23,473 nucleotides of DNA from a virus. Made by a program: the position numbers and the translations under genes. The stretch covers positions 1 through 23,473 of IMG/VR virus record IMGVR_UViG_3300008450_000468; one strand, given 5' to 3'. Below the pieces are notes generated by a model. The model was not told where the DNA came from, did not search any database, and saw only the letters and a list, made by a program, of their open reading frames with translations. Numbering within the stretch: position 1 is the stretch's first letter; each line of letters begins with the position of its first letter. Below are positions 11,915 to 22,696 of the stretch, piece by piece.

Positions 11915-11935
11915 TTGATCTTATATTTAGATCAA
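11915..11935 (+). promoter_or_regulatory. Hairpin overlapping the DNA polymerase start
   Basis: TTGATC at 11915-11920 pairs with GATCAA at 11930-11935 around a nine-base loop, TTATATTTA. The last base of the stem is the A of the ATG start. No Shine-Dalgarno site is visible. T4 DNA polymerase is known to repress its own translation through a hairpin at its ribosome site, so a similar control is conceivable here. With only six pairs the hairpin is weak. Confidence 0.35.
11920..11929 (+). promoter_or_regulatory. CTTATATTTA motif upstream of DNA polymerase
   Basis: The same ten bases occur at 16148 before the SSB gene and at 23341 before the last gene. The copy here and the last copy also share the preceding GAT. 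It may be a promoter element for replication genes, distinct from the ATATTTAT class. It also forms the loop of the hairpin at 11915-11935. Confidence 0.38.
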
Positions 11936-13242
11936 TGATAGTTGAGTCAAGTCAAGAGTTACAACATGTTAAAGATGCTATACGAGCAGGTGATAGTTTC
12001 TGGATTCCGGTTTATTCTGATGCTTATCGTCATTATCGAGAAAACCGCATAAGCTTTATTTACATATATAGTGTTGCAGAAGATCAGGACTATGTCGTTC
12101 CATTCCATCATTTGGATTGTTTAACCTTCAATACCGAACAAATACAAGAACTACAAAGTCAGGCAAGTATCTTTGTATTAGGTAAAAAGCGATTCCAAAA
12201 GACGTTCGGTAATACATGTTATGATGCGGATCTGTTTGCATGGTGGTATACCAATAAAATGTTACCATTAGATGAAACCAATACCACAGCTCATGACTTC
12301 TGGCAGCGTTGGTGGCACAATGAAACCAATATCAATGACTGGCTTCCAATAACAAAGCATTTAGAACGATGTGTGGCAATGCGTATGGTATTTATGCAAG
12401 TATATAATGCAAATAAAATATCCCCAGAGTTTATCACATATGATATGGAAACATGTCAAGCTTTTTCTGATATAGAATATAATGGTGTATATCAAAGTGC
12501 CAAGTCCTTGGCTTATACAGAATATAACTTGTACACTAGTACTGGCAGACCAAGTAATAAATTTGGCGGTGTTAACTTTGCGGCATTGAATAAAGAAGAT
12601 GGCAGTAGAAAACTATACTGTAGTCGACATGCAAAGGGAATGCTTGTTGAGTATGACTATGATGCTTATCATGTACGGTTAATTGCTGACTTGATAGGAT
12701 ATCATTTACCAACTGGTTCAGTGCATGAGTATTTTGGTAAACAATATTTTGATACCAAGCAATTAACGGCCGAGCAGTATGAACAAAGCAAGCAAATAAC
12801 ATTCCGTTTATTATACGGTGGTATAGATGATGAATTTGCTCAGATACCATTCTTTGCAGCTGTACAAAAGTATATTACCACATTATGGAAGTCATTTAAG
12901 CGTCAAGGTTATATCGTAACGCCAATATATCAACGGCATATGTTTCAACGTAATCTAGCAGATATGAATGCCAACAAGTTGTTTAACTATTTATTACAGG
13001 CATCAGAAACCGAATATAATATTAAGCGAGTATTGGATCTCAATAAATTGTTATTGTCATATCAAACCAAAATGGTATTGTATACTTATGACTCATTTCT
13101 GTTTGATTATGATATGCATGACGGCCGTCAACTGTTAATTGATATAAGAGATAGCATGAGCTTACAAGGTAAGTTTCCAGTTAAAATTAAAGCCGGAACC
13201 AATTATCATGAAATGCATGACATGACTTCCAAAGTCAGCTAG
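11935..13242 (+). CDS. Compact family A DNA polymerase with decayed exonuclease-like N-terminus
   Basis: The product would copy phage DNA. Pol I landmarks are visible in order: TSTGRPSN (residues 201-208, like the TGRLSS motif), motif A at D241 (DYDAYHVRLIADL), motif B with K286 and F290 (SKQITFRLLYGG), and motif C at D386 (YTYDSFLFDY). Both metal-binding aspartates remain. The usual motif C HDE is YDS, the position of the motif A Glu that acts as steric gate is His246, and the motif B Arg position holds Tyr282. Residues 20-110 look like a 3'-5' exonuclease fold (SFIYIYSVAEDQDYVVPF) lacking the DxE metal site, as in proofreading-deficient Bacillus enzymes. At 435 residues it is much shorter than T7 polymerase (704) or Klenow (about 605). 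A separate 5'-nuclease is encoded at 18127. The family call is good; activity is inferred. Confidence 0.83.
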   Translation: MIVESSQELQHVKDAIRAGDSFWIPVYSDAYRHYRENRISFIYIYSVAEDQDYVVPFHHLDCLTFNTEQIQELQSQASIFVLGKKRFQKTFGNTCYDADLFAWWYTNKMLPLDETNTTAHDFWQRWWHNETNINDWLPITKHLERCVAMRMVFMQVYNANKISPEFITYDMETCQAFSDIEYNGVYQSAKSLAYTEYNLYTSTGRPSNKFGGVNFAALNKEDGSRKLYCSRHAKGMLVEYDYDAYHVRLIADLIGYHLPTGSVHEYFGKQYFDTKQLTAEQYEQSKQITFRLLYGGIDDEFAQIPFFAAVQKYITTLWKSFKRQGYIVTPIYQRHMFQRNLADMNANKLFNYLLQASETEYNIKRVLDLNKLLLSYQTKMVLYTYDSFLFDYDMHDGRQLLIDIRDSMSLQGKFPVKIKAGTNYHEMHDMTSKVS

Positions 13243-13282
13243 ATATTTATTTTATAATAAAAGTTTTGACAATATTTATTAA
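13242..13282 (+). promoter_or_regulatory. Two ATATTTAT motifs upstream of ferritin gene
   Basis: GATATTTATTTT (13242-13253) and AATATTTATTAA (13271-13282) lie in the 51-base gap between the polymerase and the ferritin gene. The second ends 11 bases before the ferritin ATG. Two copies in one short gap suggest independent and perhaps strong transcription of the ferritin gene. The promoter role is inferred from the motif's recurrence. Confidence 0.5.
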
Positions 13283-13293
13283 AAAGAAATTAT

Positions 13294-13842
13294 ATGGCAG
13301 AGTTACCAAAATCAATAGTACAAACAGTAGTATCATCACAGGAAGGTGTTTTATTGCCAAAAACATTAACACCTGAAATTGTAGATATATTAAATGCTGC
13401 AATTGCAGAAGAGTATACAGCACATTATTTTTATAGAGGTGCTGCTAATTGGGCGCAGGGTGTTGGTTATACCAAGGCAGCTGCATTTTATGCCAATGAG
13501 GCAAATGCTGAGTTAGAGCATGCAATGAAATTGCAAAAATACATTGTGGATTGGAATGCAACACCGATATTACCGGCAGTTAAGTTTAACGGTCAATTTG
13601 CTCATTTAATTGACACTGTTAACAAGACTTATGCAATTGAATATCAGTTAGGCGAAAAATATATGAAATGGGCAAGTCAAATGTTCAATACACATTTAAT
13701 GACATTTAACTTCTTGCAAGAGTTTGTGGATATTCAAAATGAGTCAATAGCAGAATCATCAGATTTATTAAATGCTGCTCAGTTGGTAGATGTAAGTAAC
13801 AAATTGGATTTATTACATTATGAAGAAAGATACTTTGGTTAA
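13294..13842 (+). CDS. Ferritin (non-haem, FtnA-like)
   Basis: This 182-residue protein resembles bacterial ferritin, which oxidises Fe(II) and stores iron in a 24-subunit shell. From residue 26 it can be laid along E. coli FtnA almost without gaps. Ferroxidase ligands line up: E39 (FtnA E17), E73 and H76 in NAELEH (E50 and H53), E116 in YAIEYQLGEKY (E94), and Q148 in NFLQEFVDIQNE (Q127). FtnA E130 corresponds to S151, with E150 next to it, so the second iron site may be altered. The spacing of the four helices is kept. There is a 25-residue N-terminal extension and a short C-terminus without a clear fifth helix. Two promoter-like motifs precede it, and the next gene overlaps its end. It could sequester iron, limit oxidative damage, or be carried in the virion; none of these is shown. 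The fold call is strong. Confidence 0.88.
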   Translation: MAELPKSIVQTVVSSQEGVLLPKTLTPEIVDILNAAIAEEYTAHYFYRGAANWAQGVGYTKAAAFYANEANAELEHAMKLQKYIVDWNATPILPAVKFNGQFAHLIDTVNKTYAIEYQLGEKYMKWASQMFNTHLMTFNFLQEFVDIQNESIAESSDLLNAAQLVDVSNKLDLLHYEERYFG

Positions 13843-15235
13843 GATGATTGATTTGGATGATATACTCAATCCAATACCGGTGCAAAAAGAAGTTGCTCCA
13901 ATAATAACAGAGTCCATACAAGACACTGAGCCTGTAACAGAAACAGTTACAGCGGATTGGGATGAAGTAATTGCTGAGTGGTTTTATCGGTTGCCAAAAG
14001 GATTTGCGGAACAACCTTATACGGAGTCTGAACTTGAAGTTTTAGATCAAGTTATCGTGGAATACAAGGTAGGTGAGTTTAAACCAGTTATTAATGAAGC
14101 AAAACCAAAATCTGGACTAAGTCCGGCCGGTAAAGAATTTATGCAGAAGGTGTATGATAACGGAACTATACGAGACGAAGCATACCGACGTATAGAGTAT
14201 ATAGTATCACATGCACCGGCATCTCAGCAAGCAAAATGGAATAGTTTATTTCAAACATATAATTTAAAACAATATATTACTAGTGGCTGGAAAGAGTTTG
14301 TAGATTTCTTTGACATTGCGCCTCAGGGTATGGGCCGCGGAGAAATGATGGCAGTGCTAGCTATCAAAGGAGCTGCCTCTGGCGGTACCGAGCAAAAGGA
14401 TTTAATACTTCCGAACGCAACCTGGGAAGTAAAAGAAGACCCGGATAATATTCGAATGGCCAAATCTGGTTTTGGTGGTAAATTTAGATATGTAAAAGAA
14501 ACTAAGAAGTTTTACGAGTTATTAGACAGTATTGGATTAAATGGCGGCGAAGATGCTACAATTATAGAAAATCTTAATAAAGTATTTAATTCAGAAAAAA
14601 TAGCTGACGAGTTCATGAAAGTTTTGACTGTTAATTTTCGCGGCGATGGCTTTAAAGCAAAAAAGAAAAAAGGCGAAGAAGATGTAACAGCAGAAAACTT
14701 TTTTGAACGCGTTTCAAAAGCAGCTGAGTTACCATCTGGTGTTATAGAATTACATTATTTAGGTTATAAGGAATTAAATAGATTAGGTAAGTTAATTGTT
14801 AAAAATAAAGATTTAATTAACAATGCCAAATTGATTATACAAACAGCAAAGGCAGAAGGACAATTTTTTATTAGCTCAGATGATGCCACAAAAATACAAA
14901 AAGCCAAACCCGATCAATCAGTAAGTATCAAAGTTTCTACACCAGCAAAACAAGATATACGTGTATTTTTATATAACATACTTAAAATTATAAAATCACC
15001 TATGGTACAAGACCCAGAGTTATTACCTAAAGATTTTAATGACAGAAAGTATGCTTATTTCGCAGACGATGCTCTTCCGGGTTTTGTATATTATTTATCT
15101 GGTAATCCGCAACCATATTTAGGATATCCTAAAGATTTTATCATATATGGTATATCTCAAAATATGGGAAAGATGATGATTGGTCGTTTAGCCAGTAAAT
15201 ATGAATTTATTAAAGCGCAGCTGGCGTTAGATTAA
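13820..15235 (+). CDS. Protein with probable PD-(D/E)XK nuclease-fold domain
   Basis: The 471-residue protein is not one I can name. Residues 170-206 carry a pattern typical of restriction-endonuclease-like folds. E175 lies in a helix (MGRGEMMAVLAIKG), then D194 in QKDLILP, then E203-V-K205 in ATWEVKE. This is E...D...ExK spacing, with a strand before each acidic site. The rest is helical and charged, with a Lys-rich loop near residue 290 (FKAKKKKGEED). The first 90 residues are acidic and probably flexible. The start at 13820 overlaps the ferritin gene by 23 bases. An alternative ATG at 13844 begins one base after the ferritin stop, and neither has a clear ribosome site. Either way the two genes are probably co-translated. 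It could be a DNA-processing nuclease or a virion protein that keeps the fold. Confidence 0.7.
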   Translation: MKKDTLVKMIDLDDILNPIPVQKEVAPIITESIQDTEPVTETVTADWDEVIAEWFYRLPKGFAEQPYTESELEVLDQVIVEYKVGEFKPVINEAKPKSGLSPAGKEFMQKVYDNGTIRDEAYRRIEYIVSHAPASQQAKWNSLFQTYNLKQYITSGWKEFVDFFDIAPQGMGRGEMMAVLAIKGAASGGTEQKDLILPNATWEVKEDPDNIRMAKSGFGGKFRYVKETKKFYELLDSIGLNGGEDATIIENLNKVFNSEKIADEFMKVLTVNFRGDGFKAKKKKGEEDVTAENFFERVSKAAELPSGVIELHYLGYKELNRLGKLIVKNKDLINNAKLIIQTAKAEGQFFISSDDATKIQKAKPDQSVSIKVSTPAKQDIRVFLYNILKIIKSPMVQDPELLPKDFNDRKYAYFADDALPGFVYYLSGNPQPYLGYPKDFIIYGISQNMGKMMIGRLASKYEFIKAQLALD

Positions 15236-15669: not shown

Positions 15670-16014
15670 ATGAAAGCATCTGAATTTAGAAAACTAATAC
15701 GTGAAGAGATTGCTAAAGTGTTAAGAGAAGAGGATTCTTTTGGAGACGAAATAGCAAAACAAATACAAGCAGAACGCTTAGCACAACAGCGTAAGTTTAT
15801 TGCTTGGGCCAAACAAGCTGCAGCAAAACAAAATACAAGCTTAAACTTTAATGGAGATGCAATGGTAACTGTATCAATGGCTAAACTCGAGAGGAAGGGT
15901 ATATTGACACTTGAACTGGTAGAAAAGTGGAAAGCAGCGCCAGAAGGATCAGCAGAAAATGATCTATGGCAAGGATTGACGGTGCTGTTAACTCGATATA
16001 AAATATTAAGATAA
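15670..16014 (+). CDS. Small helical protein with KLIREEI-type N-terminus
   Basis: This 114-residue protein starts at ATG with AAAAGGAA just upstream. It opens with MKASEFRKLIREEIAKVLRE, an amphipathic helix of a type I recall at the start of several otherwise unrelated proteins in marine T4-like phages. That recollection needs a search. The middle (AERLAQQRKFIAWAKQAAAK) is basic and helical. The C-terminal part is mixed and ends LLTRYKILR. There is no catalytic motif. It is the last gene before a terminator at 16040. The N-terminal helix might be a targeting or assembly signal, which is speculation. Confidence 0.74.
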   Translation: MKASEFRKLIREEIAKVLREEDSFGDEIAKQIQAERLAQQRKFIAWAKQAAAKQNTSLNFNGDAMVTVSMAKLERKGILTLELVEKWKAAPEGSAENDLWQGLTVLLTRYKILR

Positions 16015-20681: not shown

Positions 20682-22544
20682 ATGGACGTATCTAATCAAA
20701 TACTCTCCGACATAACCGTACACATGAAGTACGCAAAATATGTTCCGGAACTCCAACGGAGAGAAACATGGGCCGAGTTGGTAACCAGAAATAAAAACAT
20801 GCATCAAAAGAAATATCCAAACTTAGCAGATGAAATTGAAAATGTATATAAGTTTGTATACGATAAAAAAGTACTTCCATCAATGCGTAGTTTGCAATTT
20901 GGTGGTAAGCCAATTGAAATTTCACCTAACCGTATTTATAACTGTGCCTATCTTCCTATTGATGATTGGAGAGCATTTGGCGAAGTGATGTTTTTATTAT
21001 TAGGCGGTACTGGTGTAGGATATAGTGTTCAACGTCATCATGCAGAACAACTACCAGAACTTCATAAACCAAATACGGCCAGAGAACGTCGTTTCCTTAT
21101 CGCTGATAGTATTGAAGGATGGGCAGATGCCATTAAAGCATTGATGAAGTCTTATTATACTGGTGGGTCAAAGATTAAATTTGATTTTTCAGATATTCGT
21201 CCTAAAGGAGCTCGTTTGGTTACATCCGGTGGTAAAGCACCAGGACCTCAACCTCTTAAAGAATGTTTAATTAAAATTCAAGGTATTTTAGATGCAAAAG
21301 AAGATGGAGAAAAGTTATCACCTATTGAAGTGCACGATGTTGTTTGTCACATTGCAGACGCTGTATTGGCTGGGGGTATACGTCGTGCAGCTCTCATATC
21401 ATTGTTTAGCGCCGATGATGATGAAATGATTTCTTGTAAGTCCGGAGCTTGGTGGGAATTGAATCCACAAAGAGGCCGTGCTAATAACTCAGCAGTATTA
21501 ATGCGCCATAAGGTTACCAAAGAGTTCTTTATGGAACTTTGGAAGCGTGTTGAATTGAGTGGAGCTGGTGAACCTGGTATTTATTTAAGTAACGATAAAG
21601 ATTGGGGAACTAATCCATGTTGCGAAATTGCTCTTCGTCCATATCAATTCTGTAACCTATGCGAGGTAAATGTATCAGATATTGAATCTCAGGAAGATTT
21701 GAATAATCGAGTTAAGGCAGCTGCATTTATTGGAACACTTCAAGCCGGTTACACTGATTTCCATTATCTTCGTCCGGTATGGAAACGTACAACTGAAAAA
21801 GATGCATTGATTGGAGTATCAATGACTGGTATTGGTTCTGGTACAGTGTTAGGATATAACATGAAAGAAGCTGCCAAGACAGTTAAAGAAGAAAATGCTC
21901 GCATAGCAGGTATATTAGGTATTAATAGCGCAGCTAGATCAACTACCGTTAAACCAGCCGGAACAACTTCATTAACATTAGGTACTAGTTCAGGTATTCA
22001 TGCATGGCATAATGATTATTATATACGTCGTGTACGTGTAGGTAAGAACGAAGCAATTTACTCTTACTTGTCAATCTACCATCCAGAGCTAATTGAAGAT
22101 GAATATTTCCGTCCTCATGATACCGCAGTAATTTCAATACCACAAAAAGCACCAGTAGGAGCTATTCTAAGAACTGAATCTCCTTTCCAATTGTTAGAAC
22201 GTATTAAACGTATTACTTTGGAATGGGTTCGCCCTGGACATCGTAGTGGTAACAATACACATAATGTATCAGCAACTGTATCATTACGCGAACATGAATG
22301 GGATGCAGCTGGTCAATGGATGTGGGATAACAGAGAATATTATAATGGTCTTTCGGTATTGCCTTTTGATGGCGGAACATATAAACAAGCTCCATTTGAA
22401 GATATCACCAAAGAGCGTTTTGATGAACTCATGAATTCATTACATAGTATTGATTTGTCTAAAGTAATTGAATTAGATGACTCAACTAACTTATCTGGAG
22501 AACTTGCTTGTGCAGGTGGCGCATGTGAGATAGCAGCAGTATGA
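20682..22544 (+). CDS. nrdJ: Class II ribonucleotide reductase, adenosylcobalamin-dependent (NrdJ)
   Basis: This 620-residue enzyme reduces ribonucleotides to deoxyribonucleotides with coenzyme B12. Key residues line up with the monomeric Lactobacillus leichmannii triphosphate reductase. C88 (YNCAY) and C324 match the redox pair C119/C419. N311, C313 and E315 (NPCCEI) match N406, C408 (thiyl radical) and E410. The spacing between C313 and C324 is the same. The C-terminal pair C610 and C615 keeps the C-x4-C spacing of C731/C736, which passes electrons from thioredoxin. It is shorter than the 739-residue Lactobacillus enzyme. It needs no small subunit and no oxygen, but needs cobalamin from the host. 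The ribosome site is AAGGAA. Its stop overlaps the next gene by four bases (ATGA). I am confident of the class. Confidence 0.94.
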   Translation: MDVSNQILSDITVHMKYAKYVPELQRRETWAELVTRNKNMHQKKYPNLADEIENVYKFVYDKKVLPSMRSLQFGGKPIEISPNRIYNCAYLPIDDWRAFGEVMFLLLGGTGVGYSVQRHHAEQLPELHKPNTARERRFLIADSIEGWADAIKALMKSYYTGGSKIKFDFSDIRPKGARLVTSGGKAPGPQPLKECLIKIQGILDAKEDGEKLSPIEVHDVVCHIADAVLAGGIRRAALISLFSADDDEMISCKSGAWWELNPQRGRANNSAVLMRHKVTKEFFMELWKRVELSGAGEPGIYLSNDKDWGTNPCCEIALRPYQFCNLCEVNVSDIESQEDLNNRVKAAAFIGTLQAGYTDFHYLRPVWKRTTEKDALIGVSMTGIGSGTVLGYNMKEAAKTVKEENARIAGILGINSAARSTTVKPAGTTSLTLGTSSGIHAWHNDYYIRRVRVGKNEAIYSYLSIYHPELIEDEYFRPHDTAVISIPQKAPVGAILRTESPFQLLERIKRITLEWVRPGHRSGNNTHNVSATVSLREHEWDAAGQWMWDNREYYNGLSVLPFDGGTYKQAPFEDITKERFDELMNSLHSIDLSKVIELDDSTNLSGELACAGGACEIAAV

Positions 22545-22696
22545 GGACAGATGATTGGATTTCTAAATTAGCTTTAGAAGAGACAATGCAAGATTATTAC
22601 AAAGAAGATGGGCGTGTAGTTTTTACCGCCCACTTTCTGCGTAAACGTGGTTACTGTTGTAATAATGGATGTAGACACTGTCCATATAAAGATTAA
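22541..22696 (+). CDS. DUF5522-like four-cysteine mini-protein
   Basis: This 51-residue gene is easy to miss. It starts in the ATGA overlap with the reductase stop. The product has a helical first half (WISKLALEETMQDYY), then VVFTAHFLRKRGYCCNNGCRHCPYKD. The CC-x3-C-x2-C arrangement (C39, C40, C44, C47) followed by PY, with VFT and RGYCC before it, is the hallmark of the small DUF5522 family as I know it. The family's function is unknown; the cysteines probably bind a metal. Coupling to a reductase that depends on thiol chemistry is suggestive but proves nothing. The next gene begins two bases after its stop, so the three genes form one unit. Confidence 0.85.
   Translation: MRTDDWISKLALEETMQDYYKEDGRVVFTAHFLRKRGYCCNNGCRHCPYKD

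Follow-up and report, generated by a model that had tools for sequence, protein, structure and literature searches.

The gene FTN, located at positions 13294..13842 of the viral record IMGVR_UViG_3300008450_000468 (a stretch of 23,473 nt, called here the window; the features described between 11935 and 16014 lie on its + strand), encodes a protein of 182 aa that, judged from sequence comparison, is a member of a phage-specific ferritin clade widespread in uncultured viruses. The best explanation of the data, which we hold with slightly more confidence than doubt, is that FTN is a working ferritin made late in infection that limits Fenton damage, probably docked on the product of the following gene, g13844. 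In particular, a dinuclear centre of the H type would let the protein bind and oxidise Fe(II), most likely within a cage of 24 subunits; with less free iron in the infected cell, the DNA and proteins of the phage would suffer less Fenton damage. The gene would have been gained as a moron-like insertion and would be transcribed from a structural-gene element, so probably late, and its product would probably be held on the g13844 protein via the N-terminal IDLDxxL peptide of the latter.

Pfam and PHROG profile matches identify the window as a fragment of a T4-type phage, with genes for sheath, gp19-like tube, hub, gp32, UvsX, 5'-3' exonuclease, DnaB-like helicase and class II ribonucleotide reductase (RNR) distributed over its 23.5 kb. 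The upstream flank of FTN is a Pol A-like gene (11935..13242; PF00476, 4.4e-9) sitting between baseplate and replication genes, whose 435-aa product resembles family A polymerases, with a match confined to the polymerase domain and no PHROG family. Directly 3' of the class II RNR gene, positions 22541-22696 encode a 51-aa DUF5522 protein (PF17653, 2.6e-17) containing the KRGYCCNNGCRHCPY motif, and weaker DUF5522 matches occur close to RNR in L021, L025, L026, L028, and L029. The product of 22699-23331 matches phrog_3704, labelled ferredoxin (2.5e-40), an obvious Fe-S cysteine pattern being absent from its sequence; contig G012 encodes, about 1.5 kb from FTN, a protein that begins very similarly. 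As regards the hosts, photosystem genes, a clue to a cyanobacterial host, were found in none of 27 ferritin-bearing viral contigs, and the FSQ/FTQ endings of predicted signal peptides in G018 and G012 (L112-L131, L140-L147) hint at Bacteroidota.

FTN matches the Pfam Ferritin family PF00210 over the cut-off (2.3e-17, 63.7 bits; cut-off 24.5) and a single PHROG of unknown function, phrog_16594 (8.5e-12). Its best PDB sequence matches are bacterial non-heme ferritins, the top one being 3qz3 from Vibrio (2.7e-11), and the family profile retrieves 5c6f from Helicobacter (2e-20). An AlphaFold (AF2) monomer model built from 21 relatives (pLDDT 89.7, pTM 0.81) has five helices, at residues 27-57, 60-86, 105-131, 135-162, and 170-181, that form a four-helix bundle plus a fifth helix in the ferritin arrangement, and it superposes on 3qz3 with an rmsd of 1.2 A and TM scores of 0.82/0.91 (Foldseek). 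The open reading frame, the Pfam and structural matches and the T4-type neighbours thus bear out the preliminary description, which had placed a ferritin gene in a T4-type phage genome and proposed a predicted structure as a check.

The four-helix bundle with a short fifth helix is common to FTN and the FtnA proteins of E. coli (1eum), Vibrio and Helicobacter, which are its best sequence and structure matches. Unlike FtnA, FTN possesses an N-terminal extension of 24 residues (LPxSTVQNVVS..Q..VLLPKT; 13294..13365) that is kept in the clade of the window and is modelled as a low-confidence coil (pLDDT of residues 1-20, 48-62), and a conserved C-terminal segment, NKLDLLHYEERYF (the LDLLHYEE C-terminus; 13798..13836), which falls in the short fifth helix in alignment and model. 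Moreover, FTN scores 41.2 bits against the NCBI FtnA equivalog NF007638, below its cut-off of 178; such termini together with the sub-equivalog score would allow for a changed assembly or function.

The ferroxidase-centre residues E40 (13411-13413), Y47 (13432-13434), E73 (13510-13512), H76 (13519-13521), E116 (13639-13641), and Q148 (13735-13737), spanning 13411..13737, align to E17, Y24, E50, H53, E94, and Q127 of FtnA and never vary among 64 distinct proteins of the family wherever the column is covered (60 or more rows). Four of the ligands first listed as kept, E73, H76, E116, and Q148, are therefore confirmed, while the fifth, E39, was one residue off, since position 39 varies between D and E and the ligand is the invariant E40. 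Likewise, the serine reported at a second-site ligand does exist, as S151 at the position of FtnA E130, but it is not the only replacement: the third iron site of FtnA, which we take to consist of E49, E126, E129, and E130 as distinct from the dinuclear ligands, corresponds to A72, I147, E150, and S151 in FTN, so that this site is absent and the dinuclear site intact. Animal H ferritin is also devoid of the third site of FtnA and yet active, and S151 is therefore no argument against activity. The conservation of the ligands supports a predicted iron oxidation by FTN.

FTN is an accessory gene. Contigs that span the site and whose UvsX is at least 89% identical show the order polA-like gene, FTN, g13844; in the sister contigs L190, L191, L203, L207, L259, L265, and L273, where UvsX is 76-81% identical in those measured, the polA-like gene is directly followed by g13844. 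In a second lineage FTN is located 3' of RNR, often behind a dUTPase gene, and again directly before a g13844 homolog; L268/L270 represent this second position without FTN. With redundant contigs counted, the first site was spanned in 42 loci without FTN and 9 with it, and the second, at class II RNR loci, in 55 without and 3 with it; the Microcystis phage Mel-JY01 has the same gene order and no FTN. Because relatives without FTN show a clean empty site, the gene is best regarded as a moron-like insertion: it lies between two genes that adjoin in relatives. The element ATATTTAT precedes it, often in two copies, and no terminator was seen between FTN and g13844. One ATATTTAT copy is, however, already present before g13844 at the empty site, compared to two in the window, at 13243-13250 and 13272-13279; FTN was therefore inserted between the element and g13844.

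The partner gene g13844 (13844..15235, 463 aa, with an alternative start at 13820 that overlaps FTN) is found as a homolog directly 3' of FTN at both genome positions in the clade of the window; the more distant FTN members L042-L075 are without it. The family is characterized by a short EWxYRxPKGYx motif near the N-terminus (EWFYRLPKGFA, 13976..14008) and a variable remainder. Ferritin-free homologs begin at this motif, with a Met 8-9 aa earlier; among 44 distinct homologs, a stretch of 40-85 residues precedes the motif in 30 of the 30 located right behind ferritin and in none of the 14 others, and [IVL]DLD occurs in 24 and none of them, respectively (Fisher 9e-12 for the extension and 3e-7 for [IVL]DLD, in related sequences that represent few independent events). 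In the window the extension starts with MKKDTLVKM from the alternative start (13820..13867) and contains the peptide IDLDDIL (13847-13867) beyond the FTN stop. The MKKDTS part overlaps the end of the ferritin gene in another frame and may be kept on that account. The simplest reading is that IDLDxxL is a candidate docking peptide for ferritin; in the 181-kb contig G007 the g13844 homolog is the only protein with an IDLD-type motif at its N-terminus. A transfer of FTN and the start of g13844 as one cassette accounts equally well for the co-occurrence, but does not by itself explain why IDLD is kept while the stretch around it changes fast. The g13844 proteins are modular, the start being conserved and the C-termini swapped (clusters c5, c13, and c201), with one form PD-(D/E)XK-like: a subset keeps E167, D186, and E195xK197 in the layout of such nucleases. 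The g13844 model (pLDDT 79) gave no PDB match at E below 0.9.

The timing of expression is suggested by the upstream element. Among 39 distinct regions upstream of FTN, 25 have ATATTTAT within 60 nt of the gene start, compared to 19 of 488 regions before replication genes (gp32, UvsX, exonuclease, helicase, RNR, and dUTPase; Fisher 3e-21, with sequences that are not independent). It also stands before the genes for tail tube (3/4) and hub (3/3), before two other late-type unit starts (9/10 and 7/7), and before some portal genes (3/9), and mid-operon tail genes are without it; its reverse complement, used as control, is almost absent upstream. From these motif statistics we infer that ATATTTAT is a late promoter of this phage group, akin in idea to TATAAATA of T4. 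Since it is the element used by structural genes, FTN is probably transcribed late, and a role tied to early DNA synthesis is disfavoured.

The same element would suit a ferritin packed in the head, alone or via the g13844 peptide, and guarding the packaged DNA or carrying iron, somewhat like the ferritin-type cargo in encapsulins; this is possible but clearly less probable than a ferritin acting in the infected cell. Besides the structural-gene type of the element, such a location is suggested by the lineage L042-L062, in which FTN lies a few genes upstream of the major capsid gene gp23, and by several genomes in which genes with N-terminal tags, more often preceded by ATATTTAT in two of three genomes, are close to FTN. 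The tags, noted in the window and in L079-L147, recur on otherwise unrelated proteins: MKxSEFRKLIREEVRKVLKE in the clade of the window, where a protein encoded at 15670..16014 with ATATTTAT upstream carries it as MKxSEFRKLIREE..VL; MIKLxDILKE in G007, G017, and G012; and MKHIKLFEEFVNE on dozens of proteins in G011, G015, and G018. Since these tags look like the capsid targeting sequences of T4, they may, by analogy, be packaging signals. However, FTN shares no tag in any of eight large contigs, its nearness to tagged genes is a weak enrichment that is not significant overall (fractions 0.165, 0.129, 1, 1, 0.046, 0.071, 0.25, and 1), and a 24-mer could not pass the tail tube; on the first two grounds FTN was rejected as a tagged head protein. 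A combined form, a virus-specific module in which a late ferritin cage is recruited by IDLDxxL onto a modular g13844-type protein whose C-terminus varies and is nuclease-like in some members, the cage possibly going with it into the virion, is likewise offered tentatively.

An iron depot for early phage enzymes such as RNR, or a device starving the host of iron, is improbable. FTN is near replication or RNR genes in the clade of the window, and NrdB lies about 3 kb from it in G020; nevertheless, the RNR of the window is of class II, a B12-type enzyme for which iron is not needed, the class II loci mostly lack FTN, as counted above, and the element upstream of FTN differs from that of replication genes. 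The special protection of the B12 reductase put forward as one possible role in the preliminary description is not favoured either, because several ferritin-bearing phages carry the class I small subunit NrdB instead, most phages with class II RNR have no ferritin and the FTN element is of the structural-gene type; of its other proposals, the holding of iron or the protection of DNA may still apply. Late protection from Fenton damage is the most economical role for FTN and matches the reading of Kavagutti et al. (PMC6802176).

Even less probable is a reuse of the ferritin fold as a scaffold or regulator with no iron chemistry: the conserved terminal segments, the co-inherited partner extension and the loss of the third site of FtnA would be compatible with it, but the six residues of the ferroxidase centre are invariant across widely diverged members.

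Two IMG/VR scans, by which the proposed ortholog search was answered with relatives and conserved neighbours in other viral contigs, yielded about 75 FTN loci of uncultured viruses, on contigs up to 385 kb, encoding the 64 distinct proteins. When 85,000 genomes of bacteria and archaea were scanned with the same profile, the one match was on a 3.2-kb contig from an actinobacterial MAG, which is most likely phage DNA because its gene order, dUTPase-FTN-partner, is that seen in phages. A cultured-phage collection queried with three family members gave no match; the positive control, E. coli FtnA, retrieved seven records from it, which look like bacterial DNA, the five examined being labelled UNVERIFIED. 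The tree separates 39 phage proteins, as a single clade (100/100) with a stem of 3.08 changes per site, from 25 bacterial ferritins, a narrow sample mainly of one class reached via the MAG. The median dN/dS of 0.087 (56 pairs) indicates purifying selection, and in close relatives the ferritins are 81-87% identical compared to 24-60% for tail genes. The idea that FTN is host DNA or a misassembly, suggested by the universality of ferritins in bacteria, was rejected as virtually untenable, since about 75 independent viral contigs have the gene amid conserved viral genes and it forms a clade apart from the sampled bacterial ferritins.

These loci also run against the earlier expectation that phages do not routinely carry ferritins, as do the report of Kavagutti et al. 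in 2019, which places ferritin among the ROS-defence genes of freshwater phages, and the UniProt entry A0A6J5MFB8 (also in BFVD), an uncultured-phage fragment named Ftn that is 69% identical to FTN and therefore probably of the same family. The ferritins of Kavagutti et al., like FTN, belong to uncultured tailed phages, and a literature search found no other paper on phage ferritin; ferritin in freshwater phages is thus already known from 2019, as a ROS-gene listing with no partner, empty site, promoter element or clade analysis in the available text (PMC6802176). The present analysis adds a definition of the clade, a census of its ligands, the empty sites, the promoter-like element and the partner extension inherited together with FTN. 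Among other viral proteins, the ferritin of giant viruses (NCLDV), with a proposed iron-supply role (PMC7136201), is by description similar in being virus-encoded and differs in belonging to eukaryotic viruses; phage Dps-like proteins, such as that of Lactobacillus phage Semele, with a proposed protection from oxidative damage (PMC6669764), share the ferritin superfamily with FTN but are a much weaker structural match (TM 0.63-0.71).

In this way a one-line mention of phage ferritin becomes a defined, widespread and phage-only clade, under strong purifying selection and with the ligands for iron oxidation kept, and directly testable clues are available on its timing (the structural-gene element), gain (the empty site), and contact (the peptide of the neighbouring protein, inherited together with FTN). 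If both the module and its carriage in the virion were true, FTN would be the first case of a tailed-phage particle component that handles iron. If the link between FTN and its partner holds, iron would be managed by phages in the late phase of infection or inside the particle, with a bearing on the way they withstand Fenton damage and on the viral control of iron in lakes.
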